Assembly (NCBI RefSeq): GCF_018406645.1
Contig: NZ_AP024546.1
Span: 682,001-746,000, forward strand
Source: Lysobacter helvus
GTDB lineage: Bacteria; Pseudomonadota; Gammaproteobacteria; Xanthomonadales; Xanthomonadaceae
Direction: 5' to 3'
DNA: 64,000 bases
Below, piece after piece: positions 26,726 to 42,912 of the stretch; the stretch's first letter is position 1, and each line of letters starts with the position of its first letter. Under the pieces are notes generated by a model. That model was not told the DNA's origin, did no database searches, and saw nothing but the letters and a program-made list of their open reading frames with translations. A program made the translations under genes and the position numbers.

Positions 26726-27502
26726 TCATCGCGCGGGATGCATTTTCCGCACCGCGGGCACGAGTTGCGCCAGCAAGCCGCAGGCCGCGAGCAACCACAC
26801 GATCAACGCGCCGCTGGGCAGGTCGAACACCGCCGACAACGCCAGGCCGAGCACGTAACCCGCGATGCCGATGATGTAGGCCGTGATCAGTTGCTTGCGG
26901 CTGCCGTTGCCGCCCACGGTCGCGAGCGCCGGGATGATCAGGCTGGCGAACACGAGGTACACGCCGACCAGCTGCACCGACACGGTGATCGCGATCGCGA
27001 ACGCGCCGTAGAACGCCAGGCCCGTCAACGTGTTGCGACGCCACCATACGAACGCGAGCAGCAACGCCGACAGGAGCGCGGCAGGCCACAACTGGTCGTA
27101 GCTCACCCACAGGATCTGGCCGACGAGGAGGTCCTTCAGGTGTTCGCCGCCTTGCGGGTTGTTGGCGAGCAGCAACAGGCCGCCGGTGGCCGCGAGCACG
27201 AACAACGTGCCGATCAGCGGTTCCTGCAGTTTCGGCCAGCGCTTGTCCGTCCATGCCAGCAATCCCGCACCGGCGAGCGCCGCCACGGCGGCGGCGATCT
27301 CCACGCCGTAGCCGTGTTCGTCGACGCCGAGGTACTGCGCGAGGATCACGCCGAGCGCGGCGACCTGCGCGATCGCCAGGTCGATGAAGATGATGCCGCG
27401 CGACAACACCTGCCGCCCGAGCGGCACGTGCGTGGACAACACGATGAGCCCCGCGACGCACGCAGGTCCGAGGATGCTGGCATCCAGGCCGTCGAGGTTC
27501 AT
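26726..27502 (-). CDS. metal ABC transporter permease (ZnuB/TroC type)
   Basis: 258 aa with seven to eight membrane helices. It belongs to the ABC-3 permease family of zinc/manganese importers: SRGIIFIDLAIAQVAALGV near the N-terminus and SVQLVGVYLVFASLIIPAL near residue 190 are conserved. Its ATG overlaps the stop of the upstream binding-protein gene (ATGA), so the two are translated together. No ABC ATPase gene is present in the operon or in the window, so the energy-coupling subunit must come from elsewhere. Confidence 0.88.
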   Translation of the reverse strand: MNLDGLDASILGPACVAGLIVLSTHVPLGRQVLSRGIIFIDLAIAQVAALGVILAQYLGVDEHGYGVEIAAAVAALAGAGLLAWTDKRWPKLQEPLIGTLFVLAATGGLLLLANNPQGGEHLKDLLVGQILWVSYDQLWPAALLSALLLAFVWWRRNTLTGLAFYGAFAIAITVSVQLVGVYLVFASLIIPALATVGGNGSRKQLITAYIIGIAGYVLGLALSAVFDLPSGALIVWLLAACGLLAQLVPAVRKMHPAR

Positions 27503-28395
27503 TTGGCGGCACCCAGCAGCTTGTCGATCGTGGAGTCGTACATGCCGAACAGGTCCTTCGACTGCGCATCGCCGCCGACGGAGAACGGCAGCACGACGAC
27601 GGGCACGCCCGTGCGATCGGACAACCAGTGCGCCGGCTTCGGATCCTGGTAGGCGGCGGCGATGATCGCGTACGTGCCCGCGGCCTTCGTCGTCGCGATC
27701 AGGCTCGACAGGTGGCCGCTGGTCGGCGGCACGCCGGGCTTCGGCTCGAGTGCGCCGATCTGCTGCAGACCGAGCCACGTGTTGAGGTACACCCAGCTGA
27801 TGTGGTGCACGACGACCTTCTTGCCCTTCAGCGGCGCGGCCTTCGCTTCCCAGCGCTTGATGGCGGCCTGCCAGCGCGTCGAGAAATCCGCGAGGCGCTG
27901 CTGGTACACCGCTGTGTTCGCCGGATCGAGCACGATCAATCGTGCATCGAGCGCCTTCGCGATCTTCAGCATGCGATACGGATCGAGCTGCACGTGCGGA
28001 TTGCCGCGCGGATGGATGTCGCCGTTGGCGCGGTCGAGCGCGGTGGGGCGTTCGAGCGTCTGCACCTGCTCGCTCGCCATGAAGTACCCGTTGCCGCTGG
28101 CCACGCGCGAGTTGCCGGATTGCTTGAGCAGCTGCGGCAGCCAGCCCACTTCGAGGTCGCTGCCGGTGCAGGCGATGAGGTCGGCCTGGCGCACCTTCGC
28201 GATCAGGCTGGGCTTGGCTTCGATCTGGTGGACGTCCTGCAGCGCGGTGGTGCCGACGCTGAGGTCGACCTTGTCGCCCGCAAGTTCGGTGACCATCGCG
28301 CCCCATTCGGGTTCGCAGGCGAAGACCTTCGGCTTGGCGAAGGCGGGCACGGCCGCGAGGCCGAGGAGGAGGAAGCAGATGAGTTGGCGTTTCAT
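27499..28395 (-). CDS. metal ABC transporter substrate-binding protein (ZnuA/TroA type)
   Basis: 298 aa, signal peptide ending AFA at residue 20. It is a cluster A-I binding protein: FACEPEWGAMVTELAGD, a histidine in QDVHQIEAKPS, the metal-site histidine in RGNPHVQLDP, and VVVHHISWVYL. It lacks the long His-rich loop of many ZnuA proteins. It captures Zn2+ or Mn2+ in the periplasm for the permease encoded next. The upstream porin gene ends 17 nt before it. Confidence 0.87.
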   Translation of the reverse strand: MKRQLICFLLLGLAAVPAFAKPKVFACEPEWGAMVTELAGDKVDLSVGTTALQDVHQIEAKPSLIAKVRQADLIACTGSDLEVGWLPQLLKQSGNSRVASGNGYFMASEQVQTLERPTALDRANGDIHPRGNPHVQLDPYRMLKIAKALDARLIVLDPANTAVYQQRLADFSTRWQAAIKRWEAKAAPLKGKKVVVHHISWVYLNTWLGLQQIGALEPKPGVPPTSGHLSSLIATTKAAGTYAIIAAAYQDPKPAHWLSDRTGVPVVVLPFSVGGDAQSKDLFGMYDSTIDKLLGAAK

Positions 28396-28412: not shown

Positions 28413-29825
28413 TCAGAATTTGTGGGCGCCGTGGGCGCCGAACGTGGCCTGGTATTGCAGGCTGATGATGTTGTCGGTGTCGGCCGCGTTCGGGTAATCG
28501 CGGCCGAGTTGCAGGCGCAGCAGGCTGAACTCGCTGTTGCGCCACGTGAGCATCACGCTGTGGCGGAACGGATCGAACGGGCTGGCGAACGGCCCGCCTT
28601 CGTCGGCCCACAGGCGGTCGTAGCGATAGCCGGTTTCCCACGTGCGGTTGATGCGCCAGATGCCTTCGACGTACGCGCCCTGGCGTTGGCCGTTCCACGG
28701 CTGGTCGAGCGTGGCATCCACCGGATCGTGGTAAGCGCCGTCGCGGTCTTCGTGGAAGTACTCGCTGCGCACGGTGACGCCGCCGTCCTTCGTGTTGCCG
28801 CCCGGCGCCCACTTCCAGGTGAAGTCGGCCAGGTACAGGTTTTCGTCGCCGCGGAAGCCATCCTCCGCGCCATCGGTCTGCGAGCGCAGCATCGACACGC
28901 CGGCGAGCCATTCGTTGTCGGTGCCGACATCGCCGCCCGCGTGCGCGAACAGCGTCTTGACGCCCGCGCCCGCGTGCCCTGCCCCGCCGCTGGGGAACGC
29001 ATCGCCGCGCAGGATTTCGCCGCCGACTTCGAAGAACACATCGGTCGGCGCCACCCAGCGCAACTGCACGCCATCGTCGCCGTACTGGTTGCCGAGGAAC
29101 GCCTGGTACGCCAGCGGACGATCGGAGAACGCGTCGGTGTGCGCGTGGTGGCTGTTGAGGTACCCGATGTTGGAGAAGAACCGGCCGGCGCGCAGCGAGA
29201 AGCCCGCGGGCATCGCGGTGGTGTCGATGTACGCCTCTTCGACGCCGAGCTTGTCTTGCCCGTCTTCGTTCTCCACCGACAGCGTCACCTGCCCGTAGAA
29301 CTTGTCGTCGATGTTGGAGGAGAACGCGAACTCGCTTTCGCCCAGCGAGAATCCCTGCGGACCGGGACCGGCGCCGCCGGCGAGCGGGAAGCCCGCGCGC
29401 AGGTAGTTGTCCGGGTTGAGCGAGTGGTACGCGTAGCTGCCGTTGAGGATCACGCTGATCGCGGGGTTGAACGCGTTCGGATTCGAGGCCGCGTTGTCGA
29501 TGGGCGGCGCGGCTTCTTCCGCAGGCGCTTCGGCTTGCGCCACCGGCTGCGACGCGTTGGCCTTCATCGCTTCGATTTCGGCGCGCGCGTCCTGCAAGGC
29601 CTGCGCGGTGGCGGCCTGGGCGTCTTCGAGGGCCTTGATCTTCGCTTCGAGCGCGGAGACCCGATCGGTGGGCGCCGCGTCCTGCGCGAAGGCGAGTGCG
29701 GGCGAAAGCGCGGCGACGACGGCGCACGCAAGGAGGGAACGACGCCATCGCGACGTCGTTGGCGATGGACTGGAGCACGACACGTCGGCGGCGCGCGCGC
29801 GCACCGACAGGCAAGACGGATTCAC
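28413..29825 (-). CDS. outer-membrane porin-like protein with N-terminal coiled coil
   Basis: 470 aa from GTG 29825, chosen because GGAGG sits 8 nt upstream. A long signal sequence ends AFA-Q; next comes a coiled coil (about 50-85, VSALEAKIKALEDAQAAT) as in OprO/P-like porins, then a beta-barrel with many aromatic strands. The segment FFSNIGYLNSHHAHTDAF is rich in histidine. It probably lets the metal, or a metal complex, through the outer membrane to the binding protein that follows. Third position in a four-gene unit beginning with a short His-rich protein. Confidence 0.82.
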   Translation of the reverse strand: MNPSCLSVRARAADVSCSSPSPTTSRWRRSLLACAVVAALSPALAFAQDAAPTDRVSALEAKIKALEDAQAATAQALQDARAEIEAMKANASQPVAQAEAPAEEAAPPIDNAASNPNAFNPAISVILNGSYAYHSLNPDNYLRAGFPLAGGAGPGPQGFSLGESEFAFSSNIDDKFYGQVTLSVENEDGQDKLGVEEAYIDTTAMPAGFSLRAGRFFSNIGYLNSHHAHTDAFSDRPLAYQAFLGNQYGDDGVQLRWVAPTDVFFEVGGEILRGDAFPSGGAGHAGAGVKTLFAHAGGDVGTDNEWLAGVSMLRSQTDGAEDGFRGDENLYLADFTWKWAPGGNTKDGGVTVRSEYFHEDRDGAYHDPVDATLDQPWNGQRQGAYVEGIWRINRTWETGYRYDRLWADEGGPFASPFDPFRHSVMLTWRNSEFSLLRLQLGRDYPNAADTDNIISLQYQATFGAHGAHKF

Positions 29826-29860
29826 GGGGAAAACCTCCGGAGCGGATGGATGACGGGATG

Positions 29861-29878
29861 GGCTGCGCAAGGGCAGCC
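29861..29878 (-). promoter_or_regulatory. 6-bp GC stem-loop between the leader gene and the porin
   Basis: On the coding strand GGCTGC and GCAGCC pair around CCTTGC. It begins 10 nt after the stop of the short leader-type gene and ends about 35 nt before the porin start, so it may act in attenuation or mRNA processing. A matching arrangement occurs at 42495-42511. Confidence 0.5.
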
Positions 29879-29888
29879 GGAACGCGCG

Positions 29889-30266
29889 TCAGGCGATCGG
29901 AGGCCGGAACGGTGAAGTCGAGGCGTGGGGCTCGATGGCGAACGCTTCCATCGGCGGCAACGCGATGCGCGGCGGATGGATGAGCGTGAAGGCGAGGACC
30001 GGCACGACCGGCGTGAACGACGGGCTGCCGCCTTCGTACCAGTTGGCGCCGTGCGTGTGCTTGCTGCCGGACTGCCCCTGGTCACCCGGATCGTCGCGGT
30101 CGCCTTCGAAGTGCACGGTGTGCGTGCGATCCACCGACGCCAGCAGCGCGTGTTCGATCGAATGCACTTCGCACATGAAATGCATGACCGGGGTGATCAG
30201 CAGCCCCAGCACCAGCAGCGCCAGCAAGCTGGCGCGCAGGGAGCGCTGGAGGCGGCGGAAGATCAT
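29889..30266 (-). CDS. short His-rich exported leader-type protein ending RPPIA
   Basis: 125 aa. A hydrophobic segment (about 10-32) acts as signal or anchor. The middle is rich in histidine and acidic residues (CEVHSIEH, RTHTVHFEGD, SKHTHGANW) and could bind metal. It ends FRPPIA, the same last five residues as the CopL-like protein at 42531-42899. It heads the porin-binding protein-permease operon. TACCCT stands exactly 7 nt before its ATG and no ribosome site is visible, so the mRNA may be leaderless. By analogy with CopL a regulatory role is proposed; this is inference. Confidence 0.72.
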   Translation of the reverse strand: MIFRRLQRSLRASLLALLVLGLLITPVMHFMCEVHSIEHALLASVDRTHTVHFEGDRDDPGDQGQSGSKHTHGANWYEGGSPSFTPVVPVLAFTLIHPPRIALPPMEAFAIEPHASTSPFRPPIA

Positions 30267-30273
30267 CTGCCCG

Positions 30274-30279
30274 AGGGTA
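30274..30279 (-). promoter_or_regulatory. -10-like TACCCT 7 nt before the metal-leader ATG
   Basis: TACCCT fits TANNNT; a -35-like TTGTCA lies 18 nt further upstream inside the inverted repeat 30289-30312. The spacing to the ATG leaves no room for a 5' untranslated region. Confidence 0.4.
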
Positions 30280-30288
30280 ACGGACCCG

Positions 30289-30312
30289 CTCCGGGCGTGA
30301 CAACGCCCGGAG
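30289..30312 (-). terminator. perfect 10-bp stem-loop after the PhoN-like gene
   Basis: CTCCGGGCGT and ACGCCCGGAG pair around a 4-nt loop. It follows the stop of the phosphatase gene by 33 nt and overlaps the expected promoter of the next operon, so it could be a terminator, an operator, or both. Confidence 0.6.
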
Positions 30313-30345: not shown

Positions 30346-31212
30346 CTACAGCGTCCCGGTGATGGGCGCCAGGCGCGCCGCTTCGGCCGTGCACTTCGCG
30401 GGATCCGGGGCGGGGGCGGCGGCCAGTTCCTTGCGCGCGGCTTCGACATCGGCGACGAACGCGGGATCCGATTGCAGGCGCGCGAAGGTCCCGGCGGCGA
30501 CCGTGCGGCCCGCGAGGATGTCGCTCTGCCAGTGCGCGTTGCAGACCAGGCGGCTTTCGCCGAACGCGCGTGCACGGGCCAGCAACGCATCGGTGCGCGC
30601 GGGTGCGACCTGCACGAGGATCAGGCCCCACGTCCAGCCGATCGCGGTATGCCCCGACGGATACGAGCCATCGTTGCGCAACTGCGCTTCATCGCCGGGC
30701 GTGCACGTGGATTCCTTGTAATGCACGAACGGCCGCTCGTGCTGGTAGTGGTCCTTCGCGCGATACGTCGAAAGGCCGGCATCGACCAGCGTGCGTTGCA
30801 TGAGCAGGTAGAGGCGCGGCGTGGCGGCCGGCGTGATCGTTTTTCCCAGGGCGCAGTCGAACGCGGTGGGCGCGTGGGGGAAATGGAGGTCGGCGTCGGC
30901 GGTCGCGAGTGCGCCGCGCGGTGTGCTGCGCAACGTTTGTGCAGTCGCGTGGATCGCTTCGTCCTGCGCGAACGCGGGCGATTTCGGATCGGGTGGCGGC
31001 GGCACGAGCGCAAGGCTGTCGGGCAATGCGCGACCGAGGTAACCGGCCGGCACGCCGGGTTTCAACTCGGGCACCGGCGCGACGGCGGCGGGCGGCGGCG
31101 TGCGTTCGACGGCACTACCCGCGCACGCCGCGAGCGCGCCGAGCAGCGTGCACGACAGCAGGGCGTGCACCGGACGCACCTGGATGCATGTCTCGACGTG
31201 TGTCGTCGCCAT
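30346..31212 (-). CDS. class A acid phosphatase/PAP2 family lipoprotein (PhoN-like)
   Basis: 288 aa. The lipobox ALAAC near residue 30 marks a lipoprotein. The vanadate-type phosphatase signature is complete: K and R in YRAKDHYQHERPF, GSYPSGHT, and SRLVCNAHWQSDILAG, matching class A bacterial non-specific acid phosphatases. It should release phosphate from organic esters in the periplasm. ATG 31212 was chosen because AAGGAGA lies just upstream; a GTG six codons earlier is possible but would overlap that ribosome site. Confidence 0.9.
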   Translation of the reverse strand: MATTHVETCIQVRPVHALLSCTLLGALAACAGSAVERTPPPAAVAPVPELKPGVPAGYLGRALPDSLALVPPPPDPKSPAFAQDEAIHATAQTLRSTPRGALATADADLHFPHAPTAFDCALGKTITPAATPRLYLLMQRTLVDAGLSTYRAKDHYQHERPFVHYKESTCTPGDEAQLRNDGSYPSGHTAIGWTWGLILVQVAPARTDALLARARAFGESRLVCNAHWQSDILAGRTVAAGTFARLQSDPAFVADVEAARKELAAAPAPDPAKCTAEAARLAPITGTL

Positions 31213-31260
31213 GGCGCGGTCTCCTTGCACCCGGCACTGTCCGCCAGGCGCAAGGTCCGC

Positions 31261-40986: not shown

Positions 40987-41385
40987 TCAGGCCATCAATT
41001 TCGGCAGCACGAACGCGAAGGCCGCGCCCGTGGCGACCGCGACGAGCGCGAACCACCACAGCACCGCACTGACCGCGCGCAGGCGACGGCACGCCGCCGC
41101 GGCCGCCGGATCGGCGGGACACGGCAACGATCGCGCGCGCCACGTCATCGCACCGGACAGGGCGAGCATCACCGTTGCGGTGCCGAACACGAGCGCCTTG
41201 TGCTCCGACAACCAGATGAGTTGCGGCACCGCGGTGACAAGCCCCGCCAGCGCCGCACCCGCGCCCAGCGCCACCATGACGGCGGGCAGCACGCAGCACA
41301 CGAGCGTGCCGGTGCTGGCGAGCAACGCCAGCGCGGCGACACCGACGTTGCGCTTGAGCGGTGCGTTCGCGACGACGTCACTCAT
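40987..41385 (-). CDS. MerT-like small metal transport membrane protein
   Basis: 132 aa, three to four membrane helices. A vicinal cysteine pair (C30, C31 in GTLVCCVLP) lies in the first helix and two more cysteines (C89, C99) in a loop before the last helix, the pattern of MerT mercuric transporters. No merR or merA is nearby. It overlaps the upstream MerP-like gene by 8 nt. The likely role is moving Hg, Cu or a related soft metal across the inner membrane; the ion is not settled. Confidence 0.72.
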   Translation of the reverse strand: MSDVVANAPLKRNVGVAALALLASTGTLVCCVLPAVMVALGAGAALAGLVTAVPQLIWLSEHKALVFGTATVMLALSGAMTWRARSLPCPADPAAAAACRRLRAVSAVLWWFALVAVATGAAFAFVLPKLMA

Positions 41386-41785
41386 GCGTGCCCATGCCCG
41401 GCATGTCCTGCATGGCGCCGTCGTGGTGGTGCTTCGCCGGATCGGCCTTCGGCTGCGCCTTCTCGTTCGACACGCGCGCGCGGATCGCCGAGATCGGTTC
41501 GTCGGTGCGGCGGATCGTGACGAGCTTGTAGCCGGCATCGGTGATCGCCTTCTTCAACGCGGCGTCGTCGATGTCCTGCCCGCCCTTGAGTTCGACGGCG
41601 ACGATGCGGTGCTCGAGGCTGACGAACACGTGCGACGTGGCCGGGAATTCCTTCAGCGTCTTCTCGATCCCCTGCGCGCAGAACGCGCACACCAGGCCGT
41701 TGACGTCCATCTCGATCGTCTTCGCGAACACGCCCGGCGCAATGCCGATGAGCGCGGCGAAGAACAGGGCTTTGAAAATCTTCAT
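41378..41785 (-). CDS. exported HMA-domain metal-binding protein (MerP-like)
   Basis: 135 aa, signal peptide ending VFA at residue 21. The mature part is a ferredoxin-like heavy-metal-associated domain with CAFC at 33-36 (consensus GxxCxxC) and ITDAGYKL. A C-terminal extension is rich in His and Met (AKHHHDGAMQDMPGMG) and may hold extra Cu+. It probably delivers metal in the periplasm to the MerT-like protein encoded by the overlapping next gene. Confidence 0.82.
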   Translation of the reverse strand: MKIFKALFFAALIGIAPGVFAKTIEMDVNGLVCAFCAQGIEKTLKEFPATSHVFVSLEHRIVAVELKGGQDIDDAALKKAITDAGYKLVTIRRTDEPISAIRARVSNEKAQPKADPAKHHHDGAMQDMPGMGTHE

Positions 41786-41805
41786 GTGTGCTTTGTCCTT
41801 GGAAA

Positions 41806-42459
41806 TCAGAAATTGAACATGGCCATGGCTTGCACCTTGCCGTCGGTCGTGGCGCCGAATTCCACCCACGTGCCGCCCTTGAAGAAGCGGACGAGCAAGG
41901 CGGTTTCGGTGCCTTCGGAGATGCCGCCGGTATAGCGGCGCCCCTGGACGACGAACCACGTGGCCAGCTTGTCGTAATCGTGCGCGTACGGCGCCCACCC
42001 GAGTTGCACGGTGTCGATGCGGTGGGAAAACCGGTCGCTATCGTGCAGGTCGGACCGGAACGACGAATACACGCGCCGCGTTTCGTAGTCGGCCTGGACG
42101 CCGACGTTGCGCGACAGCTCGGGTCCTTCGAAATCGTTGCCCGTCGCGCGCCCGAGGCCGCCCCACACGAAGACGTTGGCCTGCGCGTCCGGCAGGTTCC
42201 ATCGCTTCGCGAGCAGGTTGGCGCGCAGGTAGCTGATGTTGCGTCGCTTCGCCCCGTCTTCGCTGTCGAGTTCCAGCCACCCGCCACCGACCGAATACCA
42301 GTAGCGCGGCGCGTAGAACATCTGCGCCTCATACATCGTGCCCGCGCCCCACTCCAGCATCAGCGTCTTGCCTTTCGCGAACGCGATCGGCTTCGCCGTC
42401 GCCGCCAGCGGCAACAGCCCGAGCAGCAAGCAAGCTGCCCAGCGTTCCAACAGGTTCAT
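41806..42459 (-). CDS. exported protein of unknown function in a metal operon
   Basis: 217 aa, signal peptide ending ATA near residue 23. The mature part is beta-rich with aromatic strands (MFYAPRYWYSVGGGWLEL, TALLVRFFKGGTWVEFGA), suggesting a small outer-membrane barrel or periplasmic beta protein. I do not recognise the family. It lies between the CopL-like leader (71 nt upstream) and the MerP-like gene (20 nt downstream), so a role in metal passage is plausible. Confidence 0.72.
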   Translation of the reverse strand: MNLLERWAACLLLGLLPLAATAKPIAFAKGKTLMLEWGAGTMYEAQMFYAPRYWYSVGGGWLELDSEDGAKRRNISYLRANLLAKRWNLPDAQANVFVWGGLGRATGNDFEGPELSRNVGVQADYETRRVYSSFRSDLHDSDRFSHRIDTVQLGWAPYAHDYDKLATWFVVQGRRYTGGISEGTETALLVRFFKGGTWVEFGATTDGKVQAMAMFNF

Positions 42460-42494
42460 GCCATCGCTCCATGGAAGCCGCACGCGGCGGCGTC

Positions 42495-42530: not shown

Positions 42531-42899
42531 TCAGGCGATGGGCGGCCGGAGTGGCGTCTCGAGGACGCGCGAGGGCACGAACAGCACATCGATGGTGACG
42601 AAGCGATCCGGCACCGGAACGTGTGCGGAGACGCGCGCCATCGCCGGCAAGCACGCCGCGGCGCCCAGGCATGCCGCGAGGCTGCAATGCGCCTTCGCGC
42701 AAGGATCCGTGGCGGGCGCCTGCTGCATCGCGTCCATGTGGTCGCACGGCATGTCCATCGCCACCGCCGGCACGGCCGGCGCAGGGAGGCTGGCGATCGC
42801 CTCCTGCGCCGCGACCACGGGCGCCACGACCCCGGCCAGGCTCATCGAAGCGACGAGGACCAGGTGCAGCGCGAGGCGGGCGAGGTTGCGGAGCGGCAT
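42531..42899 (-). CDS. CopL-like metal-responsive leader protein ending RPPIA
   Basis: 122 aa, signal sequence (about 8-31). The centre carries a metal-binding cluster of Cys, His and Met (VAMDMPCDHMDAMQ, then DPCAKAHCSLAAC). It ends LRPPIA. Size, exported Cys/His/Met-rich centre and position at the head of a metal operon resemble CopL of Xanthomonas copper operons, which is needed for copper induction. TAGAAT stands 7 nt before the ATG and no ribosome site is visible. Downstream genes encode an envelope protein and MerP-/MerT-like proteins. Confidence 0.72.
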   Translation of the reverse strand: MPLRNLARLALHLVLVASMSLAGVVAPVVAAQEAIASLPAPAVPAVAMDMPCDHMDAMQQAPATDPCAKAHCSLAACLGAAACLPAMARVSAHVPVPDRFVTIDVLFVPSRVLETPLRPPIA

Positions 42900-42906
42900 G
42901 GGCGGG

Positions 42907-42912
42907 ATTCTA
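42907..42912 (-). promoter_or_regulatory. -10-like TAGAAT 7 nt before the CopL-like ATG
   Basis: TAGAAT matches the -10 consensus at 5 of 6 positions and lies in the loop of GGCGGG...CCCGCC (42901-42920). The distance to the ATG implies a leaderless transcript. No good -35 was found. Confidence 0.5.

Follow-up and report, generated by a model that had tools for sequence, protein, structure and literature searches.

The window (the whole 64,000-nucleotide stretch of Lysobacter helvus DNA analyzed here) carries a short gene, leader 1, whose last codons are, in the predicted mRNA fold, the anti-Shine-Dalgarno arm of a hairpin over the ribosome site of the following porin-like gene. This feature is absent from the earlier note on the same DNA. 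That the leader cassette acts as a cis regulatory element is well supported; that it is a zinc-responsive nascent-chain switch is moderately supported. The locus suggests a zinc uptake operon under CruR-type control, in a position where a Zur-like box is found at related operons; this would be a natural and testable swap of transcriptional for translational metal control. It also links a fixed protein C-terminus to a concrete RNA function, in which the tail codons would lock the next gene, and for many operons of the Xanthomonadaceae a protein motif thereby becomes a prediction that is quantitative and open to mutation.

Table 1. Features of the two leader loci, with positions in the window.
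Feature	Position	Strand	Remarks
Leader 1	29889..30266	(-)	125-aa apparently exported His-rich protein, end SPFRPPIA; family profile matches in 255/395 family genomes
-10 TACCCT of leader 1	30274..30279	(-)	7 nt before ATG; predicted leaderless start
-35-like TTGTCA of leader 1	30298..30303	(-)	18 nt from -10
GGCCTCCG, 5' arm of hairpin	29898..29905	(-)	Arg codon (its last two bases) and the two Pro codons; pairs with Shine-Dalgarno, P = 0.97
Inner GC stem-loop GGCTGC/GCAGCC	29861..29878	(-)	29878-29873 with 29866-29861; the 6-bp stem of the earlier note
CGGAGGTT, porin Shine-Dalgarno, 3' arm	29832..29839	(-)	From RNA fold
Porin-like protein	28413..29825	(-)	GTG start; first codons resemble OEP genes behind sister leaders
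ZnuA-like metal-binding protein	27499..28395	(-)	PF01297, E 1.8e-42 with slightly longer frame
ABC-3 permease	26726..27502	(-)	PF00950
Leader 2, CopL-like	42531..42899	(-)	122 aa, end LRPPIA
-10 TAGAAT of leader 2	42907..42912	(-)	7 nt before ATG
GGAG, Shine-Dalgarno of gene after leader 2	42467..42470	(-)	Start ATG 42459; only partly paired with tail

The two leaders and the operon behind leader 1

Leader 1 contains many His residues and a single Cys. Judged by eye, its N-terminus has a basic n-region and a hydrophobic core, and the AxA site is not clear. By the size and position rules used for CutF-like proteins, leader 1 is shorter than 150 aa, carries PP within 15 residues of the C-terminus, and has a same-strand next gene less than 1000 nt away. 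CxxC is absent from the protein, and neither RAPP nor RGPP occurs near the C-terminus, where the tail reads FRPPIA with two residues after the PP. Neither the Pfam model of DUF2946 (PF11162) nor the CopL family model NF033807 matches leader 1. An HCC(G) motif, found by pattern in 59/70 leaders, is also missing. The same motif is missing in several leaders that head OEP genes, including sisters of leader 1, and thus its loss is not tied to uptake. A perfect 9-bp inverted repeat, CTCCGGGCG-TTGTCA-CGCCCGGAG (window 30289-30312, minus strand), surrounds the leader 1 -35; its right half is absent in the congener G002 (L004). The repeat could be a regulator site or the hairpin of the upstream gene. 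A gene for a PAP2/PhoC-like acid phosphatase (30346-31230, minus strand) ends just upstream of the leader 1 promoter.

The earlier note had called the genes that follow a metal ABC/porin operon, for zinc or manganese. Genes of the families PF01297 and PF00950 are present, the latter encoding the only such permease found in a whole-genome search, but an ATPase gene is not in the operon. The porin-like protein has no meaningful sequence match in Pfam, NCBIfam, or PDB; the name porin is a reading from the place of the gene, a signal peptide seen by eye, and the interpretation in the earlier note. The binding protein by itself did not distinguish zinc from manganese. Because Zur-like boxes occur at orthologous operons (see below), the operon, with its PF01297 and PF00950 genes, is most likely one for zinc uptake, and it is the zinc half of the proposal that we retain.

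Leader 2 had been described as sharing the architecture of leader 1, and most of that description is borne out. Both proteins end in RPPIA, preceded by SPF in leader 1 and by L in leader 2. Both genes have a TANNNT hexamer exactly 7 nt before the ATG (TACCCT, 30279-30274; TAGAAT, 42912-42907) and no ribosome site before it, and both are followed by short spacers, of 63 nt to the porin GTG at 29825 and 71 nt to the ATG at 42459. Leader 2 scores 24.5 bits against NF033807 (CopL), below the curated cut-off of 40. Clear homologues of leader 2 occur in 6/149 genomes including this one (16/149 at E up to 0.01), and their tails are RPPIA in five and RPPNA in one. The Shine-Dalgarno (SD) behind leader 2 is weakly paired to the leader's own tail (0.30); in several of the homologues an anti-SD is seen by eye just after the stop codon instead. 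The two leaders share start, tail, and layout, but a clear lock is seen at leader 1 alone. Behind leader 2 (40987-42459, minus strand) lie genes for a 217-aa protein with no family assignment, an HMA-domain protein of periplasmic type (MerP-like), and a membrane protein resembling MerT.

A family of leaders in the Xanthomonadaceae

A single-sequence search with leader 1 matched 28/149 relatives (E up to 0.01), including a few chance hits (L025, L026, L029, and L032; L025, L029, and L032 were excluded from later sets). The true matches align through the last residues of the leader. Among 23 aligned leaders, which are 22-45% identical to leader 1, P26 and the tail PPI are invariant. A profile of these 23 leaders matches in 255/395 Xanthomonadaceae genomes and, across the class, in only 5/274 genomes, three of which are again Xanthomonadaceae. 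DUF2946 (PF11162) matches 15/23 of the aligned members at E up to 0.1 (best 8.9e-5), and NF033807 (CopL) gives a weak match in 10/23 as well as in leader 2. Loci were hand-picked for genus spread among the profile matches listed, and the counts below are therefore those of a non-random sample. The examined loci held 118 profile hits, which became 106 after removal of 11 duplicates and of L013, whose next ORF was unreadable; the statistics set comprises 69 less redundant leaders out of the 106. The start positions of L024, L028, and L051 were reset by hand.

The earlier note had proposed that RPP-ending ORFs be collected across the Xanthomonadaceae. An [R/K]PP tail is present in 106/106 non-duplicate homologues with a readable next gene (Arg in 94, Lys in 12), a count to be read with the fact that the profile was built from tail-bearing leaders and could miss tail-less homologues. 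Ile directly follows the PP in 103/106, and the usual tail across most family members is [F/L]RPPI or FKPPI. In the tails examined the PP/Ile stands one or two codons from the stop.

In 60/68 leaders TANNNT is found 4-9 nt upstream of the start, compared with 12/1020 background positions, and an SD-like 4-mer precedes 0/68 (68 of the 69 less redundant leaders, with the start near the model's first position). Judged from these sequences, the mRNAs of the family probably start leaderless; for czcI2 of Cupriavidus a leaderless mRNA has been mapped (PMC7563307). In the 55 nt upstream of the start, ATTGTGTA is found in 33/68 leaders and ATTG[TC][GC]TA in 41/68. The second element, upstream of leaders in L007-L143, often appears as ATTGTGTAAC at the -35 place. 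It is longer than a plain -35 and is possibly the signature of a sigma factor or an activator.

By BLAST, the gene after the leader is efflux OEP-like in 104/106 cases and the porin in 2/106, and PF02321 was found in 20/20 of the OEP-like genes tested with Pfam. The OEP gene is short or split in L021 (214 aa) and L013 (no 180-aa ORF), possibly by frameshifts. The two leaders that head the porin are those of this genome and of G002; in three other congeners searched, neither the leader profile nor the porin matched. A pattern scan of the genome contigs for relatives confirmed none, and plasmids searched by protein and DNA held no such leaders. A genome-wide pattern of RPP near a stop was dropped as too loose (252 + 264 sites vs. 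178 + 182 in the control). The earlier note's idea of a family of probably leaderless, apparently exported leader proteins with a fixed tail, in front of metal-type operons, is thus upheld by the profile, the 106/106 tails, and the 60/68 TANNNT hexamers. Its general kind, though, is already published (CruR, PMC9426467; CutF, PMC9973294).

Tail codons as the predicted anti-Shine-Dalgarno arm

The tail codons CCTCCG of leader 1 are complementary to the SD of the next gene, CGGAGG. In the predicted fold there is one hairpin, with GGCCTCCG and CGGAGGTT as the outer stem and the GC stem-loop inside. The single 6-bp GC stem-loop per spacer that the earlier note had reported does exist (GGCTGC/GCAGCC at leader 1, GGGCGC/GCGCCC at leader 2), but at leader 1 it forms just the inside of a larger predicted hairpin, in which the tail codons and the SD make the outer stem. 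We computed P(SD:tail), the ensemble probability that the SD pairs with the last nine codons (stop included). The predicted value is 0.97 for leader 1; it exceeds 0.5 in 58/68 relatives and is 0.5 or less in 10/68. (This analysis and that of the leader starts each lost one of the 69 leaders.)

The pairing goes beyond what the encoded peptide demands. Over 30 leaders the mean P(SD:tail) is 0.80 for real tails vs. 0.32 for synonymously recoded ones; the corresponding values are 0.97 vs. 0.36 for leader 1 and 1.00 vs. 0.65 for that of G002. For 6/30 leaders (L019, L027, L041, L102, L122, and L123), the SD was hidden equally well or better by a majority of the recoded tails. Unrelated downstream gene pairs gave a mean of 0.13 with 0/4 above 0.5, and since only these four pairs were usable, synonymous recoding served as the control. 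The tail:SD duplex, compared with synonymous recodings of the same tail (n = 69), has a median z of -2.3. It ranks below 0.05 in 43 leaders and is better than the recoded median in 67/69. Swapping SD partners among leaders weakens the duplex from -13.8 to -11.8 kcal/mol (sd 0.22, 0/2000). With one leader per genus (n = 29) the values are -13.9 for own vs. -11.7 for swapped partners (0/5000), and the own pair beats the average foreign pair in 21/29.

Codon choice in the tail points the same way. The first Pro codon of the tail is CCT in 70, CCC in 25, CCG in 9, and CCA in 2 of the 106 leaders, and CCT makes up just 6.6% of the 1799 Pro codons in the next genes. The dominance of a rare codon at this position argues against selection on the peptide alone. 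Conversely, third bases vary and the Pro and Ile residues stay (Ile is spelled by three codons), which argues that the peptide is selected as well as the RNA. Both the protein and the RNA of the tail thus seem to be under selection. CCT and CGT/CGA are rare codons in these genes and might also act by delaying the ribosome; judging by the swap test, pairing explains their use at least in part.

Comparative folding counts against the pairing. RNAalifold, run on a MAFFT alignment of 64 of the 69 sequences (L017, L020, L114, L135, and L140 were left out), gave no consensus structure; the pairwise energy and ensemble tests were used next. A site-by-site covariation test, from which five leaders were dropped (four without GGAG and one with KRPPRA), found no clear compensatory signal in the core CUCC:GGAG, because the core hardly varies, and several flanking positions of the tail:SD pair do no better than independence. 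A search of Rfam returned a single chance-level match, far below its gathering score.

Zur-like boxes and leaders at orthologous porin operons

The porin gene was found in 21/149 relatives, and 9/21 of these loci have a leader in front, two in this genus (RPPIA) and seven in other families (CxxC). The seven CxxC leaders (L075, L076, L077, L078, L079, L080, and L082) comprise six with RAPP or RGPP, which in L079 lies short of the C-terminal end; the seventh, L080, has RASP. Pairing of SD and tail at five of these loci is 1.00 in L077, 0.73 in L082, and 0.40 in L075. The SD of L078 is paired just after the stop (0.92), and pairing is absent in L076.

Zur boxes listed for Caulobacter (PMC4176598) were the source of the motif, which we scored as TGTTATNNNATAACA with a cut-off of at least 10/12 positions, set after the scores had been seen. 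Sites at this cut-off are present at 8/12 loci without a leader and at 0/9 with one (Fisher p = 0.0046, uncorrected for kinship, with which the contrast is confounded as the leader loci are mostly from other families). The first scan covered little of the sequence that precedes the leaders of this genus. The repeat covered 900 nt upstream (318 nt for L081), which left the counts unchanged, and 350 nt before each leader, where no site reached 10/12 (best 9/12, in L079). In the 350 nt before leader 1 the best site, scored with the relatives' motif type only, is 7/12, no better than shuffles. No Zur-like box with at most one mismatch was found anywhere in the genome, and sites with two mismatches number three vs. 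one in the control. Leader and Zur-type control therefore seem, from these scans, to alternate at the porin operon. A Fur/Zur-like gene lies just upstream of the operon in G006, and this genome retains a Zur homologue (G000:C1:450911-451270) that is 67% identical to it. The retained homologue counts against the leader-based switch proposed below.

Origin of the leader 1 cassette

A tree of 70 leaders (128 columns), in which many forks are unresolved, places leader 1 together with L005, L099, and the leader of G002 (99/94). Both L005 and L099 stand before OEP genes, and they have the PPIA stop, GTG start, and GGAGG site in common with others of the type. The start regions of the next genes are alike in this sister group even at the porin (GTGAATCCG..TTGCCTG vs. 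GTGAATTTGCGTTGTCTG). The first 20-odd residues of the porin are unmatched in most other porins, with the match starting at residue 23 or later in 13/14 loci outside the genus. The simplest story suggested by these alignments is that leader and start were captured together from an efflux operon. A fuller version, in which promoter, His-rich leader, RPPI anti-SD, hairpin, and first codons moved as one cassette from OEP operons to zinc uptake and replaced Zur, with the RPPI codons serving as both arrest signal and RNA lock, is tentative, and we give it somewhat less than an even chance. If true, it would make the locus a zinc-responsive counterpart of CruR and CutF.

Proposed mechanism and alternatives

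We favor, with moderate confidence, the reading that leader 1 is a cis-acting nascent-chain uORF switch of the CutF/CruR kind, placed on zinc uptake. The mRNA would begin at or beside the leader ATG. After synthesis of leader 1, the RPPI codons, the stop, the GC stem, and the porin SD would form the hairpin that hides the SD. A ribosome halted at or close to the RPPIA end would cover the 5' arm and leave the SD free, so that the porin, the ZnuA-like protein, and the permease could be made; a ribosome that finishes and leaves would allow the hairpin to shut. The dwell time of the ribosome is probably set by the exported His-rich part according to metal, most likely zinc, and uptake would be on when zinc is scarce. 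In the arrest systems SecM, MifM, VemP, and the RAPP peptides, the ribosome opens a hairpin over the next SD, and such a hairpin is shared with the model for leader 1. This reading is supported at the level of sequence by the conserved tail, the near-leaderless promoter, tail:SD pairing stronger than the encoded peptide requires, an operon of zinc type, and the alternation of Zur-like boxes and leaders; ribosome arrest, zinc binding, and polarity at leader 1 are what we infer. If the presence of a ribosome means "on" in both efflux and uptake operons, the polarity must differ between them.

Ribosomes of E. coli were not stalled by the tripeptide RPP on its own, and strong stalling was seen with Arg before three prolines (PMC4176338). 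The FRPPI of leader 1 is neither RAPP nor RGPP, and this, like the missing HCC(G) motif, weighs against the switch. Coupling without arrest is therefore a serious rival: a ribosome ending at the leader stop would melt the hairpin and pass to the porin start without any metal sensing, and the leader would be a passive or separate periplasmic metal binder. The hairpin and the spacing would suffice for this. Against plain coupling stand a Pro pair that is invariant and an Ile that is nearly so despite frequent synonymous changes, and the published relatives need both tail and metal site (CruR, PMC9426467; CutF, PMC9973294); we regard it as unlikely, though worth taking seriously. Translation or arrest on the leader might instead decide transcription into the porin by Rho-dependent attenuation, with SD masking secondary. 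This is the mode of CruR (PMC9426467), but the spacer here is 63 nt compared with 162 nt for CruR (PMC9973294), and tail:SD pairing is the feature with detectable selection, which makes attenuation improbable at this locus. The smallest chance, a slim one, goes to a leader protein that works in trans, as a zinc chaperone or sensor in the periplasm, and whose conserved tail serves protein function. A His-rich, apparently exported protein with a tail conserved at the protein level would fit such a role, but the synonymous bias and the tail:SD complementarity indicate a cis role of the RNA, and according to PMC9973294 neither CutF nor CopL works in trans.

Comparison with known systems

PMC9426467 points out that riboswitches for copper or zinc have not been described and puts forward a copper uORF in their place. 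The literature matches listed (titles and abstract openings) include the CutF, CruR, and RAPP papers, and none of the matches listed concerns a zinc uptake operon under such a leader or presents tail codons of metal leaders as the anti-SD. SecM, MifM, VemP, and the RAPP arrest peptides resemble leader 1 in having a C-terminal stalling sequence in an upstream ORF, but they sense protein export and not metal, and the motif of leader 1, where arrest is presumed, differs from theirs (PMC12992588). CzcI and CzcI2 of Cupriavidus lie upstream of czcCBA, much as the leaders of the family precede OEP genes (PMC9973294, PMC7563307), but they are said to lack a C-terminal proline motif (PMC9973294). CopL of Xanthomonas is described as required for copper-regulated expression, and not in trans (PMC9973294).

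CruR of Bordetella pertussis (DUF2946) is a metal-responsive uORF, as leader 1 is proposed to be; it too is the first gene, with PP three residues from its end and an outer-membrane transporter next (PMC9426467). Metal relieves its arrest at the PP motif, CruR requires RAPP (PMC9426467), and it was reported to arrest translation in the E. coli PURE system (PMC12992588). It differs from leader 1 in its CxxC and RAPP motifs, its response to copper, Rho-dependent termination, a long intergenic region, and a dispensable signal peptide (PMC9426467). The nearest worked example is CutF of Rhodobacter capsulatus, since it acts in cis, is translated and exported, has a stem-loop over the SD, and requires its Pro-rich tail (PMC9973294). 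CutF is a short exported protein with a metal motif, first in its operon and with PP near the C-terminus (PMC9973294, PMC8456105), and leader 1 is likewise short, apparently exported, His-rich, first in its operon, and equipped with PP near its end; a short spacer, a stem-loop predicted here to hide the SD, and the proposed cis action are further likenesses (PMC9973294). CutF, in contrast, responds to copper, precedes a multicopper oxidase, and ends in EGPPPRL (PMC9973294). The neighbors of CutF-like genes include efflux OEP and HupE/UreJ genes, and no zinc uptake operon was seen among the neighbors covered (PMC9973294). Finally, the stem-loop of CutF is described as intergenic (PMC9973294), whereas at leader 1 the tail codons themselves are predicted to be the anti-SD arm.
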